Shown: positions 17,984 through 31,005 of the stretch, piece by piece
Layout of the letters: each line of letters starts with the position of its first letter
Position numbering within the stretch: the first letter of the stretch is position 1
Source of the DNA: Sporolactobacillus kofuensis
Lineage (GTDB): Bacteria > Bacillota > Bacilli > Bacillales > Sporolactobacillaceae
Assembly: GCF_024125425.1 (NCBI RefSeq)
Contig: NZ_JAMXWN010000013.1
Coordinates: 1-64,000 of the forward strand
Length of the DNA: 64,000 bases
Reading direction: 5' to 3'
The notes under the pieces: model-generated
Seen by the model: only the letters and a program-made list of their open reading frames with translations
What the model was told of the DNA's origin: nothing
Databases searched by the model: none
Position numbers and translations under genes: made by a program

Positions 17984-18586
17984 TTATTCTGAAAGTTCGT
18001 TAATCGTTTCTTTATAATGATCGTAAAAGAGATCATATGCATCCATTTGCTCGTTTTGATTTTTCATCATTTCAACGAGTGGCGGTAATTCACTAAGATC
18101 ATGTAGTCCGAAATAATCAAGGAAGAGTGAGGTTACCCCGTACAGAATTGCACGTCCGCTTCCTTCTGCACGCCCAACCTCTTTAATAAGCCCTTTTACC
18201 ATCAAAGTCTGTAAAGCACGCTCTGATTTAACACCACGAATCTCTTCAATAGATATTCGGGATACGGGTTGTTTATACGCAATAATGGCGACCGTTTCGA
18301 GTGCTGCTTGAGACAATGGTGCTGTCTTTGGAATGACGGCAAACTGTTCAGCATAATCAGCCATGAATGGTTTGGTGGTTAATCGAAACCCATTCGGCAT
18401 ATCGACAATCATGATGCCACTGGACTCATTCTGATTGTAAGCCATTTTCATTTGTTCAATCTGATTTGAGAGTTCCTGAATCGAGCACTCGGGAATGACT
18501 TTACTGATCTGATCTATGGTAAGTCCATCCTCGCCTGTAAGATAGAGCAGTCCCTCAATAATCGAACGAATCTTCGCTTGCTTCAA
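17984..18586 (-). CDS. scpB: Segregation and condensation protein ScpB
   Basis: Kite subunit of the SMC-ScpAB condensin that organises and segregates the chromosome. Two winged-helix domains; diagnostic motifs are SQAALETVAIIAYKQPVSR, EEIRGVKSERALQTL and GRAEGSGRAILYGVT. A TTG at 18586 is taken as start since AAGGAG lies 8 bases upstream, giving 200 residues; an earlier TTG (18607) is possible. It overlaps the scpA end by 32 bases, which implies coupled translation. Confidence 0.92.
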   Translation of the reverse strand: MKQAKIRSIIEGLLYLTGEDGLTIDQISKVIPECSIQELSNQIEQMKMAYNQNESSGIMIVDMPNGFRLTTKPFMADYAEQFAVIPKTAPLSQAALETVAIIAYKQPVSRISIEEIRGVKSERALQTLMVKGLIKEVGRAEGSGRAILYGVTSLFLDYFGLHDLSELPPLVEMMKNQNEQMDAYDLFYDHYKETINELSE

Positions 18587-19343
18587 AATTATCTGCTCCT
18601 TCTCCAAGAATAATCATGATGTCATCAAAATTCTTACTCTGATTACACACAATTGCATTCATTTTCATCAACTCTAACAAAGCAAGAAAAGTAACAATAA
18701 GATGAGAGCGATCCGTGTACAAAAAAATAGATTGGAAAGACAGCGGGATGTTCGTTTTTCTTAATTTATCCATAACATTGCTCATCTGCTGACCAATCGG
18801 TAGCACTTGTCGGTCAATTTTTGTACTCAATGGTTGCTCCAATTTATGCTTAAGTATTACCCGTTGAAAAGCATGAAGCATATCATGAACTGTTGCTCGT
18901 CCAGCAATTGGGATCGCAGTTAGATCATTGTTTTCGTATTCACTTAAGTCTGTTGGTGGTTTTGCAAACAATTGCATGCGTTCACCTTCATGAACCTTTA
19001 ACGCCTCTGCCGCTTCTTTAAATTGGCGATAATCAATAAGCTGCTGCATCAATGCTTGTCGAGCCATTTCCGGATCTTCATATGGTTCATCACTATCTTC
19101 TTGATCAAGCTCCGGTTTTGGCAGCAACATCCTACTCTTCATTGCAATTAATTGTGCTGCCATTAGCAAATATTCGCTTGCAATATCTAATTCTAGTTTT
19201 TGCATTTGATGAATAAAATCCATATACTGATCCGTAATCTCAGCAACCGGAATGTCGTAAATGTCAATTTCAAGTTTTTTAATCAGATGCAGAAGTAAAT
19301 CAAGAGGACCTTCGAAAGCATCGATTTTTACTTTGTACTCCAA
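18555..19343 (-). CDS. scpA: Segregation and condensation protein ScpA
   Basis: Kleisin that bridges the SMC heads and binds ScpB. The 262-residue protein begins YKVKIDAFEGPLDLLLHLIK, the classic N-terminal kleisin motif, has LLMAAQLIAMKSRMLLPKPE in the helical region and a C-terminal winged helix with LHLIVTFLALLELMK-like sequence (here SHLIVTFLALLELMK). TTG start 9 bases after AGGGGG. Upstream lies a fragment of the dispersed repeat and then ribT. Confidence 0.92.
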   Translation of the reverse strand: MEYKVKIDAFEGPLDLLLHLIKKLEIDIYDIPVAEITDQYMDFIHQMQKLELDIASEYLLMAAQLIAMKSRMLLPKPELDQEDSDEPYEDPEMARQALMQQLIDYRQFKEAAEALKVHEGERMQLFAKPPTDLSEYENNDLTAIPIAGRATVHDMLHAFQRVILKHKLEQPLSTKIDRQVLPIGQQMSNVMDKLRKTNIPLSFQSIFLYTDRSHLIVTFLALLELMKMNAIVCNQSKNFDDIMIILGEGADNFEASEDSFDY

Positions 19344-28227: not shown

Positions 28228-29036
28228 TTAGATTGAACGAATAATGGATTTAATTAAGGAAGTAAAATCTGCTTTGACTCGATCAGCCGTTTCTATGACT
28301 TCTTTGTGCGACAACGGCTGATCAAGAATGCCACAAGCCATATTTGTGATACAAGAAATTCCAAGGACATCGAGTCCTAGATGGCTCGCTGCTGTGACTT
28401 CCGGAACAGTAGACATTCCGACGGCATCCGCACCCATCACGCGCATCATACGAATTTCAGCCGGTGTTTCATATTGCGGACCATGCGTTGCAAGATATAC
28501 ACCTTCCTGAACATGAATATTCAGTGTTGAAGCGCCTGCTTTGCCGTATGAATCAATGCCGGACTATATGCATGCGACATATCTGGAAATCGCGGTCCAA
28601 GTTCATCTTCATTCGGACCGATCAGTGGGCTACCCCCGAGCATATTGATGTGATCATTAATTAACATTAAATCGCCTGGTTGAAATGAGGTATTTATCCC
28701 ACCACATGCATTAGTCACAATCAATTTTTCTATGCCCATTGCCTTCATGACATAGACAGGAAAAGCAACTTGTGCCAAAGAGTAACCCTCATAATGGTGA
28801 TAGCGTCCTTGCATTGCAACAACCGTTTTCCCTTCAAGCTCGCCGATCACAAATTGGCCTTTATGACCCTTAACGGTTGATTCAGGAAAATGAGGAAGCG
28901 AATGGTAAGGAATGCGATCCGCATCCGCTATCTCTTCTGCAAGGTCCCCGAGACCGGAGCCTAGGATTAAACCGATATGGGGTTTTTGATTTGTATAGTG
29001 TCTGAGTTTGTCCATAACTTCTTTTATTGGTTTCAT
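28228..29036 (-). pseudogene. pupG: Purine nucleoside phosphorylase PupG, frameshifted
   Basis: Trimeric PNP family, inosine/guanosine phosphorolysis. The N-terminal 171 codons (LILGSGLGDLAEE, MQGRYHHYEGYS, VTNACGGINTSF, GPNEDELGPRFPDMSHAY) end at a TGA at 28521-28523. The rest continues in another frame: HVQEGVYLATHGPQYETPAE, then GADAVGMSTVPEV and ILDQPLSH. One missing base near 28524 (CACTGAATATT, where CAC TTG AAT ATT would restore the frame) accounts for it. Both halves together equal the normal length of about 270. No homopolymer is involved. It starts with GGAGCG before ATG, downstream of xerD. Confidence 0.88.
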
Positions 29037-29076: not shown

Positions 29077-29994
29077 CTATTCTTTTACACGAGGATGGAA
29101 ACTTGCGTACAATTTCTTCAACGGCGGTCGCTTCGGAAGAGAATACCTCAGTACAGTAGAGGAAGGTGAGCGGCCGAGCAGTTCATCAATGAATTCAAGA
29201 GAAGCACCATTTTGCAACAAGTGTGCGGTTAAGGATTGGCGAAGCGTTTCCGGTGATAAAGAAATGGCCAGACCCGCAATTTCAGCATTGTGCTTAAGGA
29301 TCTTCCAAACCCCTTGCCTTGTAAGCCTTCTATTCAATCGATTGATAAATAGAGGCTGTTCAGCCTTTTCTTCCTCTGCCGATTCATGATCCATGTTCAT
29401 ATATTGGTCAAGTGCTTCAATTGCAGGAGGGTTAAGCGGAATAATCCGTTCACTCCCTTTTTTTCCGCCGACACACTGAACAAATTCTAGTTCAAGATTC
29501 ACATGTTCACGATTTAATTGGATGCATTCGGAGACACGCATCCCAGTGGCATACAATAATTCGAGCATTGCCCGATCACGTCTTCCGAGCTTTGTACTCG
29601 AATCGGGAGCTTTTAGAAGCTTATTTACCTGGTCAATGGTCAAGAGGGTAGATAATGTACGCGGTTCTACATTCGGAATTTCCAATGTATAAGCGGGGTC
29701 ATGTGTCATCTGATGATTCCGAAGTAAGTAGCGATGAAATCCACGTACCGCAGCAGCCTTTCTTGCTTGTGTCGTTGTTGCATTGCCTCGATCTTTTAAA
29801 TAATAGAGATATTTTATCACAACCAAGTCCGTGACATTTTCCCAAGCAGTACAATGCTCTTGATAAATGAGATAATCCAAATATTGATGCAAGTCGTTCC
29901 TGTAGGCCTCAATAGTGTTTTTTGAGAGACCACGATCTTTGATTAGAACAGCTAAAAAGTCATCCAACTGTTTCTTCAATCGCTCACTCTCCAT
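29077..29994 (-). CDS. xerD: Tyrosine recombinase XerD with changed active site
   Basis: XerD resolves chromosome dimers at dif and, in B. subtilis, unloads SMC complexes at the terminus. 305 residues: N-terminal SAM-like core-binding domain (RGLSKNTIEAYRNDL) and catalytic domain with the first arginine in LYATGMRVSE, a lysine in GGKKGSER and the nucleophile tyrosine in LRYSL. The usual PHTLRHSFATHLL is PETLRQSLTAHLL, so the HxxR histidine is glutamate, and LLGHADIS is LLGRSPSS, so the second histidine is arginine. Codons CCG-GAA and GGC-CGC confirm both. It overlaps the yqzK-like gene by 11 bases. Confidence 0.88.
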   Translation of the reverse strand: MESERLKKQLDDFLAVLIKDRGLSKNTIEAYRNDLHQYLDYLIYQEHCTAWENVTDLVVIKYLYYLKDRGNATTTQARKAAAVRGFHRYLLRNHQMTHDPAYTLEIPNVEPRTLSTLLTIDQVNKLLKAPDSSTKLGRRDRAMLELLYATGMRVSECIQLNREHVNLELEFVQCVGGKKGSERIIPLNPPAIEALDQYMNMDHESAEEEKAEQPLFINRLNRRLTRQGVWKILKHNAEIAGLAISLSPETLRQSLTAHLLQNGASLEFIDELLGRSPSSTVLRYSLPKRPPLKKLYASFHPRVKE

Positions 29995-30235
29995 CTCGTA
30001 AAAATTCTATAAGCCTTGCATAATCATGCTGAACATGCCAAAACATGTATTGCCCTTCGCCACCAGTTGTTATTGCGCTCACCTCGGCAGCCCCAGCCCC
30101 AGGCTCCTCATACCGGTGGACATTCTGCTGATGTTGATCCATCCAAATCATTCCATAATAAAATACAGCTGTCAATAAAATGAATACTATCAGCATTTTT
30201 AATAATTGAATGGTTGTTTGACTAGTATTTTTCAT
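29984..30235 (-). CDS. yqzK: YqzK-like small membrane protein (DUF4227)
   Basis: 83 residues with one membrane segment (about 12-30, LLKMLIVFILLTAVFYYGM), then a soluble tail with the family-like motif HRYEEPGAGAAEV. Location between fur and xerD is that of B. subtilis yqzK. No function is known. It is translationally coupled to xerD. Confidence 0.7.
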   Translation of the reverse strand: MKNTSQTTIQLLKMLIVFILLTAVFYYGMIWMDQHQQNVHRYEEPGAGAAEVSAITTGGEGQYMFWHVQHDYARLIEFLRDGE

Positions 30236-30504: not shown

Positions 30505-31005
30505 TCATACTTTTTCAGGTTCTTTTTCAAATTCCTTTTCTTTATTCAAACGATTTTCTTCTTCATGCTTTTCTAAACAGCGATGGCAAATGCCATGAAA
30601 AGTCAAGCGATGATCTTTGACTTTAAAATGCCATTTACGCTCCACCACTTTCTCAACTTCTCCAAGCAAATCTTCTTGGATTTCATCAACTGAACCACAT
30701 TCAATGCAAACCAAATGATGATGAAAGTGACTTGCACCTTCTCGACGAAGGTCATAACGCGAGACGCCATCTCCAAAGTTAATTTTGTCAACAATCTTCA
30801 ACTCTGACAATAACTCAAGTGTTCGGTATACTGTGGCTAGGCCGATTTCAGGAGCTTTCTCCTTCACAAGAAGATAGACATCTTCAGCGCTCAGATGATC
30901 TTGTTCATTTTCCAACAAGACTCTGACTGTCGCTTCTCGTTGGGGCGTCAATTTGTATTTTTGAGCATGAAGCTGTTTCTTAATTCGATTAATTCTGCCT
31001 TCCAT
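30505..31005 (-). CDS. fur: Ferric uptake regulator Fur
   Basis: Iron-dependent repressor of the Fur family. 166 residues, slightly longer than usual because of a Lys/Glu-rich tail (about 145-166). Winged helix in residues 1-85 (YKLTPQREATVRVLL, GLATVYRTLELL), then metal sites HFHHHLVCIECGSVDE and the second cysteine pair CHRCLEKHEEE. PerR- or Zur-type identity is less likely: the gene sits between spoIIM and yqzK/xerD, as fur does in B. subtilis, and the regulatory histidines follow Fur. A PerR-like box is upstream. Confidence 0.88.
   Translation of the reverse strand: MEGRINRIKKQLHAQKYKLTPQREATVRVLLENEQDHLSAEDVYLLVKEKAPEIGLATVYRTLELLSELKIVDKINFGDGVSRYDLRREGASHFHHHLVCIECGSVDEIQEDLLGEVEKVVERKWHFKVKDHRLTFHGICHRCLEKHEEENRLNKEKEFEKEPEKV

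Follow-up and report, generated by a model that had tools for sequence, protein, structure and literature searches.

Why would a bacterium keep a tyrosine recombinase that has lost the residues with which it recombines? The question is raised by the xerD gene of Sporolactobacillus kofuensis, which lies at 29077..29994 on the minus strand of the window, the 64,000-nucleotide stretch of DNA analysed here. An earlier note on this DNA held that the encoded protein lacks two catalytic histidines, and that selection may be keeping it for its DNA-binding role.

The xerD locus and its catalytic residues

The earlier note described xerD as intact and in its usual place, and this holds: the reading frame has an ATG start, zero internal stops and a 305-aa product, and the order of its neighbours recurs in the genus. 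TIGR02225 (XerD) is the top-scoring of 11 NCBIfam models for the window protein, at 279 bits against a cut-off of 329.6 that is missed, and the Pfam SAM-like and Phage_integrase domains are both above cut-off. By sequence, the best solved relative is E. coli XerD (PDB 1a0p); the streptococcal short XerD model NF002685 is not reached (35.7 bits, cut-off 178). A structure model from 8 sequences has a mean pLDDT of 81.3 and a pTM of 0.59, with residues 108-114 and 278-290 below 50, and a Foldseek search with this model adds little, its first match being 1a0p with a TM of just 0.45/0.50.

Upstream lie a small gene that we take to be yqzK-like (29984..30235, minus strand) and a fur-like regulator gene, the usual upstream neighbour (30505..31005, minus strand), while downstream come the start of pnp (purine nucleoside phosphorylase), the usual downstream neighbour (28521..29036, minus strand), and putative dacF, spoIIA and spoVA. 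The identities of fur, pnp, dacF, spoIIA and spoVA are presumed from motifs, and an endospore former fits the neighbouring spore genes. The usual order, fur - small gene - xerD - (deoB) - pnp, is met in the genus by motif tags: the small gene is present in 15/15 loci, fur is upstream in 14/15 (untagged in G010), and pnp is downstream in 14/15 (none listed for G009, and broken in G000, the window's genome). The window pnp is frameshifted past residue 171, its remainder lying in another frame, which is either real or an assembly error; among the 14 congener loci, 13 have an open pnp of 270-317 codons, counted between stops, and G009 has none listed. The stop of the small gene overlaps the xerD start, and a reading frame ending in [RG][DEN]GE and a stop terminates at the xerD start in all 19 loci read. 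This overlap of the small gene's conserved end with xerD is the same in dead and active XerD loci, and translational coupling is possible.

The active site of the window XerD consists of R153 (in GMRVSE; 29536..29538), K178, E249 (in PETLRQ), R252, R275 (in LLGRSPSS) and Y284 (29143..29145). E249 and R275 align with the histidines of SPHVLRH and LLGH in 1a0p, which agrees with the earlier note's reading of the HxxR histidine as Glu and of the second histidine as Arg, and the codons are as read there, GAA at 29248..29250 and CGC at 29170..29172 (all minus strand). A search for xerD gave matches in 57 of 58 genomes, the window's own included. We aligned 30 of these 57, including the full set of 15 genus genomes (G000 to G014); the 27 xerD-bearing genomes outside the alignment are all outside the genus. 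The 12 canonical XerDs that serve as our active set all have His at both positions, and all 15 genus genomes have E and R there, in proteins 45-66% identical to the window XerD. The earlier note had suggested aligning close relatives, and none of the 14 congeners carries PHTLRH or LLGH. We also considered a sequencing error or a lone oddity, which is ruled out because the identical residues recur in 15/15 genomes. None of the other 15 aligned rows, all from outside the genus, has E or R at these positions, and a branch with 100/100 support separates the genus from the rest of the tree.

The earlier note further held that the first arginine, the HxxR arginine and the tyrosine are kept. This is true of the window, but across the genus it fails for the tyrosine, which is Phe in 6/15 species (G001, G002, G004, G007, G008 and G009). 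R153 is retained in 14/15 and is His in G001, one of the Phe species; K178 is retained in 7/15. With both histidines replaced in every member, the R-K-H-R-[H/W]-Y set is complete nowhere in the genus, and we regard the catalytic loss as near certain; the lack of a competent active site, which the earlier note had suspected for the window protein, is fixed in the clade. The Phe states probably arose in three places (G004/G007; G001; G002/G008/G009), and two origins are also possible because the forks between G001 and G002/G008/G009 lack resolution. Elsewhere in the family, the XerD of G019 (another genus, no XerC; locus L030) has Gln for the HxxR histidine and His for the beta-hairpin lysine, perhaps a second, partial decay, and the dif adjoining its xerS is a near-perfect XerD palindrome. 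A wider contig scan returned only two Coriobacteriaceae XerDs, and the literature titles searched, with subscription papers mostly outside their coverage, include none about a catalytically dead XerD from this group and none on Sporolactobacillus with XerD or XerS.

XerS, the missing XerC and the former dif

Chromosome dimers are presumably resolved in the genus by XerS. XerS is present in all 26 family genomes, with its catalytic set intact in 25; the exception is G018, a 75%-complete genome with stops within the gene. The XerS of the window's genome has the motifs GLRLSE, RKGNK, HKLRH, LGH and YTH, and it has everything by which we recognised a XerS: a score above the NF003462 cut-off (393.1 bits vs 267), the full catalytic set and a linked asymmetric site (G000:C43:43336). 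XerD is found in 25/26 family genomes, G023 being the one without a match. A locus distinct from xerD passes the XerC model in 5/26 (G015, G017, G021, G022 and G024), and in G016 only the xerD locus does; we count XerC as absent in 20/26, with the 75%-complete G018 placed in neither class.

Across the genus, applying the XerC model to integrase-family matches returned no XerC. A hidden XerC in the window's genome was sought among nine integrase-family matches, which are XerD, XerS and seven others; none passes the XerC model, and the seven, read at six loci, are proteins resembling integrases, or fragments. At the usual locus, xerC is missing from both genus genomes read: G000 has trmFO - codY, with hslV and hslU missing there as well (L182 14499-14816, G000:C1), and G014 has trmFO - hslV - hslU - codY, as against topA - xerC - hslV - hslU - codY in the control G024. 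The identities of trmFO, codY, hslV and the G024 xerC were checked with NCBIfam, and those of topA and hslU are presumed. At L008 1441-2248 (G000:C1), what we take to be a mutL-like gene is adjoined by integrase fragments in more than one reading frame, probably a decayed mobile element. A search for other Xer genes, also suggested in the earlier note, thus yields a full XerS in the window's genome and no XerC. The combination that the note had named as speaking against it, a normal close relative while this genome lacks any other Xer, was not found.

In G000, G014 and G002, an inverted repeat, ATTACTACGTAAAATATAATTTTGACGAAGTAAT, lies 0.5-1.9 kb upstream of xerS, the third base of its core varying. 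We spotted this XerS dif-like site by eye because the inverted repeat is conserved; its right arm is one base longer, and there is one such site per scanned stretch in each of the three genomes. Its left half-site recurs directly upstream of xerS, where it may serve autoregulation; on G000:C43, the full site and two left half-sites lie upstream of xerS (43336, 43737 and 45066), the last of them being the copy next to the gene. For difSL, too, PMC5357621 describes a right arm that is longer by one base. The resemblance to XerS/difSL of streptococci and lactococci thus covers both the protein, which passes NF003462, and a linked site with asymmetric arms, but the letters differ (the streptococcal difSL sequence has only scattered weak matches in the DNA upstream of xerS), as does the arrangement of a distant full site and a half-site copy next to xerS. 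The family also departs from streptococci and lactococci in having XerD as well nearly throughout and XerC in five genomes; a coexistence of XerS with XerCD is described for L. helveticus in the available part of PMC3025954.

In G014, which is a single contig, dnaA is at 778 kb and xerS at 2318 kb, and in twenty 20-kb samples the GC skew flips again between the 2307 and 2370 kb stretches, so that xerS sits at the terminus, at the skew switch away from dnaA. In some relatives with XerCD, a dif like that of B. subtilis, judged against what we take to be the B. subtilis letters, adjoins xerS, for example GTTTACATAATATATATTATAGGAAT in G024. A search for dif, likewise proposed in the earlier note, finds its XerD arm in the genus, apart from the XerS site: GTTTACATAA lies beside xerS in 15/15 genomes (12 exact, three with one mismatch), on the xerS strand; relative to the point where the xerS match ends, its position ranges from 4 bp ahead to 676 bp beyond. 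When such stretches are shuffled by mononucleotide, 6-16% of them, depending on the genome, contain an arm with at most one mismatch. The former XerC arm has turned XerD-like in all 15, carrying the T16, G20 and T21 that also occur in the TTATGT of a second XerD arm. Near xerS, the best arm has two mismatches in G023, which has no XerD, and three and two in G016 and G022, both with XerD; absence of the arm beside xerS is therefore not always loss, because G016 and G022 carry XerD without an arm there.

The position of this former dif suggests a role for the dead XerD as an accessory or regulator of XerS recombination, in synapsis, as a topological filter or as a link to FtsK, and not as an SMC unloader. 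The ex-dif arm just downstream of xerS in every genus genome, which in three genomes read is 2-3 kb away from the XerS site, and the XerS left half-site just upstream of the gene would suit such a role. However, further polar XerD-type sites lie 5-107 kb away, G023 has XerS and a XerS-type site upstream of xerS with no XerD match, and streptococcal XerS is, in the available text of PMC5357621, a single recombinase under FtsK control with no XerD part named there. We consider a XerS accessory unlikely.

XerD-type sites around the terminus

Across the 15 genomes we counted 124 copies of the arm pattern GTTTACATAAW, or 113 once those within 1 kb of xerS are removed. Within 50, 100 and 150 kb of xerS there are 16, 21 and 26 such arms, against 2.9, 4.9 and 6.2 expected. 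The reversed pattern, used as a control, is itself mildly enriched, with 9, 10 and 10 of 105 against 2.7, 4.4 and 5.6 expected (p 0.0019, 0.015 and 0.06, respectively), which points to some general enrichment near xerS. At 150 kb, arms exceed reversed patterns (26/113 vs 10/105, Fisher 0.006), and do so with three near-copy genomes removed (23/92 vs 7/78, p 0.005). By itself, the XerD arm is a weak genome-wide marker with counts like those of the reversed pattern; the signal is carried by position and by the second arm.

We read 25 of the 26 near sites, excluding one near-copy orthologue, and 21 hand-picked far sites. GT at offset 20, which belongs to the second arm, is found in 16/25 near and 3/21 far sites, and any other offset gives at most four in either set. 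With xerS taken as the position of the terminus, the strong arm faces the terminus in 16/16 two-armed near sites and in 5/9 one-armed ones. Several of these sites are syntenic or orthologous and hence not independent, and the 16/16 amounts to about six or seven independent positions: in the four genomes compared, sites recur near -38 kb in three, at +25 kb in four and at +40 to +50 kb in two. The +25 kb site lies within a long ORF in G014, G002 and G010 and is intergenic in G000. Flanks are richer in AT near the terminus (0.76 vs 0.65 far), and this composition accounts for part of the clustering.

In stretches that we read from end to end, two-armed sites with an exact arm (base 4 T or A), ex-dif included, number three in 147 kb of G000, three in 400 kb of G014, four in 240 kb of G002 and three in 326 kb of G010. 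There are none in distal DNA of G014 (340 kb) or G002 (200 kb), and none in 200 kb around xerS of G023, and the DNA read in G024, G017 and G020 has none either. Only this exact class is informative, since two-armed sites with one mismatch are not enriched, their distal rate (two in 340 kb) resembling the near rate. In G024 and G020, two arms each obey the polarity of the genus; the polarity is broken by the dif and one arm in G017, by a one-mismatch site in G024 and by one arm in G023. G023 (L060), a single contig with XerS and SMC and no XerC or XerD match, is a natural deletion control. Taken together, the sequence data support a clustering at the terminus of XerD-type candidate sites, at which binding is predicted.

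Clustered terminus sites are also shown by MatP-like and fork-trap proteins, polar ones by fork traps, and the XerD DNA-binding fold could have been put to another kind of terminus organisation, as a septum anchor, a fork barrier or a local control on transcription. We find this improbable given that B. subtilis XerD is reported, in the available parts of the papers cited below, to unload SMC, and that a streptococcus-like dead XerD adjoins scpA in 26/26 genomes.

Selection on the dead XerD and its proposed role

In all 15 genus genomes xerD is open and free of internal stops, and it is under purifying selection, with a dN/dS of about 0.12, even between two species without the tyrosine. The three unsaturated dead pairs give 0.129 (G006/G014, with few changes), 0.124 (G004/G007) and 0.130 (G005/G011), where XerS gives 0.00, 0.043 and 0.040, and four more distant pairs give 0.09-0.15 at dS >1.6. 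The only unsaturated pair with canonical histidines, G020/G025, which has no XerC, is lower at 0.077. Between G004 and G007, both Phe species, a simplified count finds 18 nonsynonymous changes over 687 sites against 45 synonymous changes over 210 (p 5e-17); this count and the dN/dS values rule out a pseudogene.

XerD evolves at about three times the rate of XerS, and 62 of its 305 columns are invariant in the genus. We scored columns near-invariant in the 12 active XerDs for retention in all 15 dead ones: 41/98 are kept before residue 236 (14/34 in the N-terminal domain and 27/64 in residues 106-235), against 5/40 in the catalytic end (236-285) and 3/13 in the tail. New and fixed in the genus are E249, R275, S247, L255 and A257, and, in the N-terminal domain, A30, K79 and A80. 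With sites persisting around the terminus, this purifying selection would fit the DNA-binding role that the earlier note had put forward.

It is conceivable that the protein still recombines by an unusual chemistry, with Glu and Arg substituting for the histidines, as E249 and R275 never vary although the protein evolves fast, and R153, R252 and Y284 remain in 9/15 species. Yet the other six combine this E and R with Phe for the tyrosine, K178 is retained in fewer than half of the species, and XerC and its arm are gone, and we give such chemistry very little credence. Least credible of all is a functionless relic in slow decay, which a long stem branch and a XerD faster than XerS might suggest, but which sits poorly with a gene that is stop-free in 15/15 and has a dN/dS of 0.12-0.13 in unsaturated pairs, even after loss of the tyrosine.

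We consider it probable, then, that a recombination-dead XerD is kept as a terminus-binding protein, most likely as an SMC unloader of the B. subtilis type. SMC is full length and above the TIGR02168 cut-off in all 15 genus genomes. The window has an scpA-like ORF, called by motif, at 18555-19343, which ends 9.7 kb from xerD and so does not adjoin it. Since G023 keeps SMC without XerD, the role would be dispensable in the family. The XerD of B. subtilis (RipX) is alike in its gene order, which we take to be fur - small gene - xerD, in XerD-type terminus sites and in the presence of SMC, but it recombines with XerC (CodV) at dif, whereas the genus has a ruined active site, XerS and no XerC that we found. 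In B. subtilis, SMC unloading by XerD reportedly needs no recombination. That XerD unloads SMC at the B. subtilis terminus is stated, with reference to Karaboja et al. 2021, in several citing papers (PMC12322038, PMC13342612, PMC8357415, PMC9564211, PMC10945525), the last of which mentions an unloading site, XDS, and the perhaps necessary presence of several as SMC takes large steps. The spread of our candidate sites over tens of kb fits such a need for several sites.

A parallel is seen in a genus that we take to be Streptococcus. Among 398 genomes sampled from the class, which we presume to be Bacilli, a short XerD passes the NF002685 cut-off in 26, all of this one genus. In these 26, the first arginine is Leu, Thr or Ser throughout, the first histidine is Gln in 25 and His in one, the second histidine is Leu in all, and the tyrosine is kept in 21 and Phe in five. 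In 26/26 the short XerD gene is followed, in the same orientation and with either an overlap or a gap of at most 50 bp, by a gene with an scpA motif (23 called by one motif and three by a looser look; the two scanned with NCBIfam pass the ScpA model), and scpA encodes an SMC subunit. This protein (PRK02436, NF002685), for which we take XerD-like to be the HAMAP name, is like the window's a XerD homologue with its catalytic residues lost, in bacteria that use XerS; it differs in being shorter, in having other substitutions and in lying directly upstream of scpA. The use of XerS by streptococci is stated in the available text of PMC5357621.

As read from the genomes, the genus has lost the catalytic set and XerC, has XerS and its site, keeps xerD under purifying selection, and has candidate sites that are clustered and polar. 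We propose that the recombinase chemistry of an orthologous XerD was lost in the ancestor of the genus, within a family that would have had XerS and its own dif throughout and had lost XerC, and that the protein was retained as a sequence-specific terminus-binding protein. The dead XerD would occupy, as dimers, the former dif and several two-armed, dif-like sites on either side of the terminus, each with its strong arm oriented to the terminus, and origin-derived SMC-ScpAB would most likely be released there, as by XerD in B. subtilis. Binding, dimer occupancy and SMC release are what we infer for the dead XerD, and the release step leans on the B. subtilis analogy and on the streptococcus-like gene neighbourhood. 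More tentatively, and with somewhat less than even confidence, we suggest that a recombinase has become a dedicated, orientation-dependent SMC release factor, whose dimers on polar sites would catch SMC on its way from the origin, twice, here and in streptococci, each time in a lineage with XerS for dimer resolution.

The two jobs of B. subtilis XerD, recombination and SMC release, thus seem to have been separated by evolution in this genus. With the protein and its terminus sites but no chemistry, the genus would be a clean system for asking what SMC release requires of XerD, whether the orientation of sites matters, and whether the short streptococcal XerD beside scpA shares this role.
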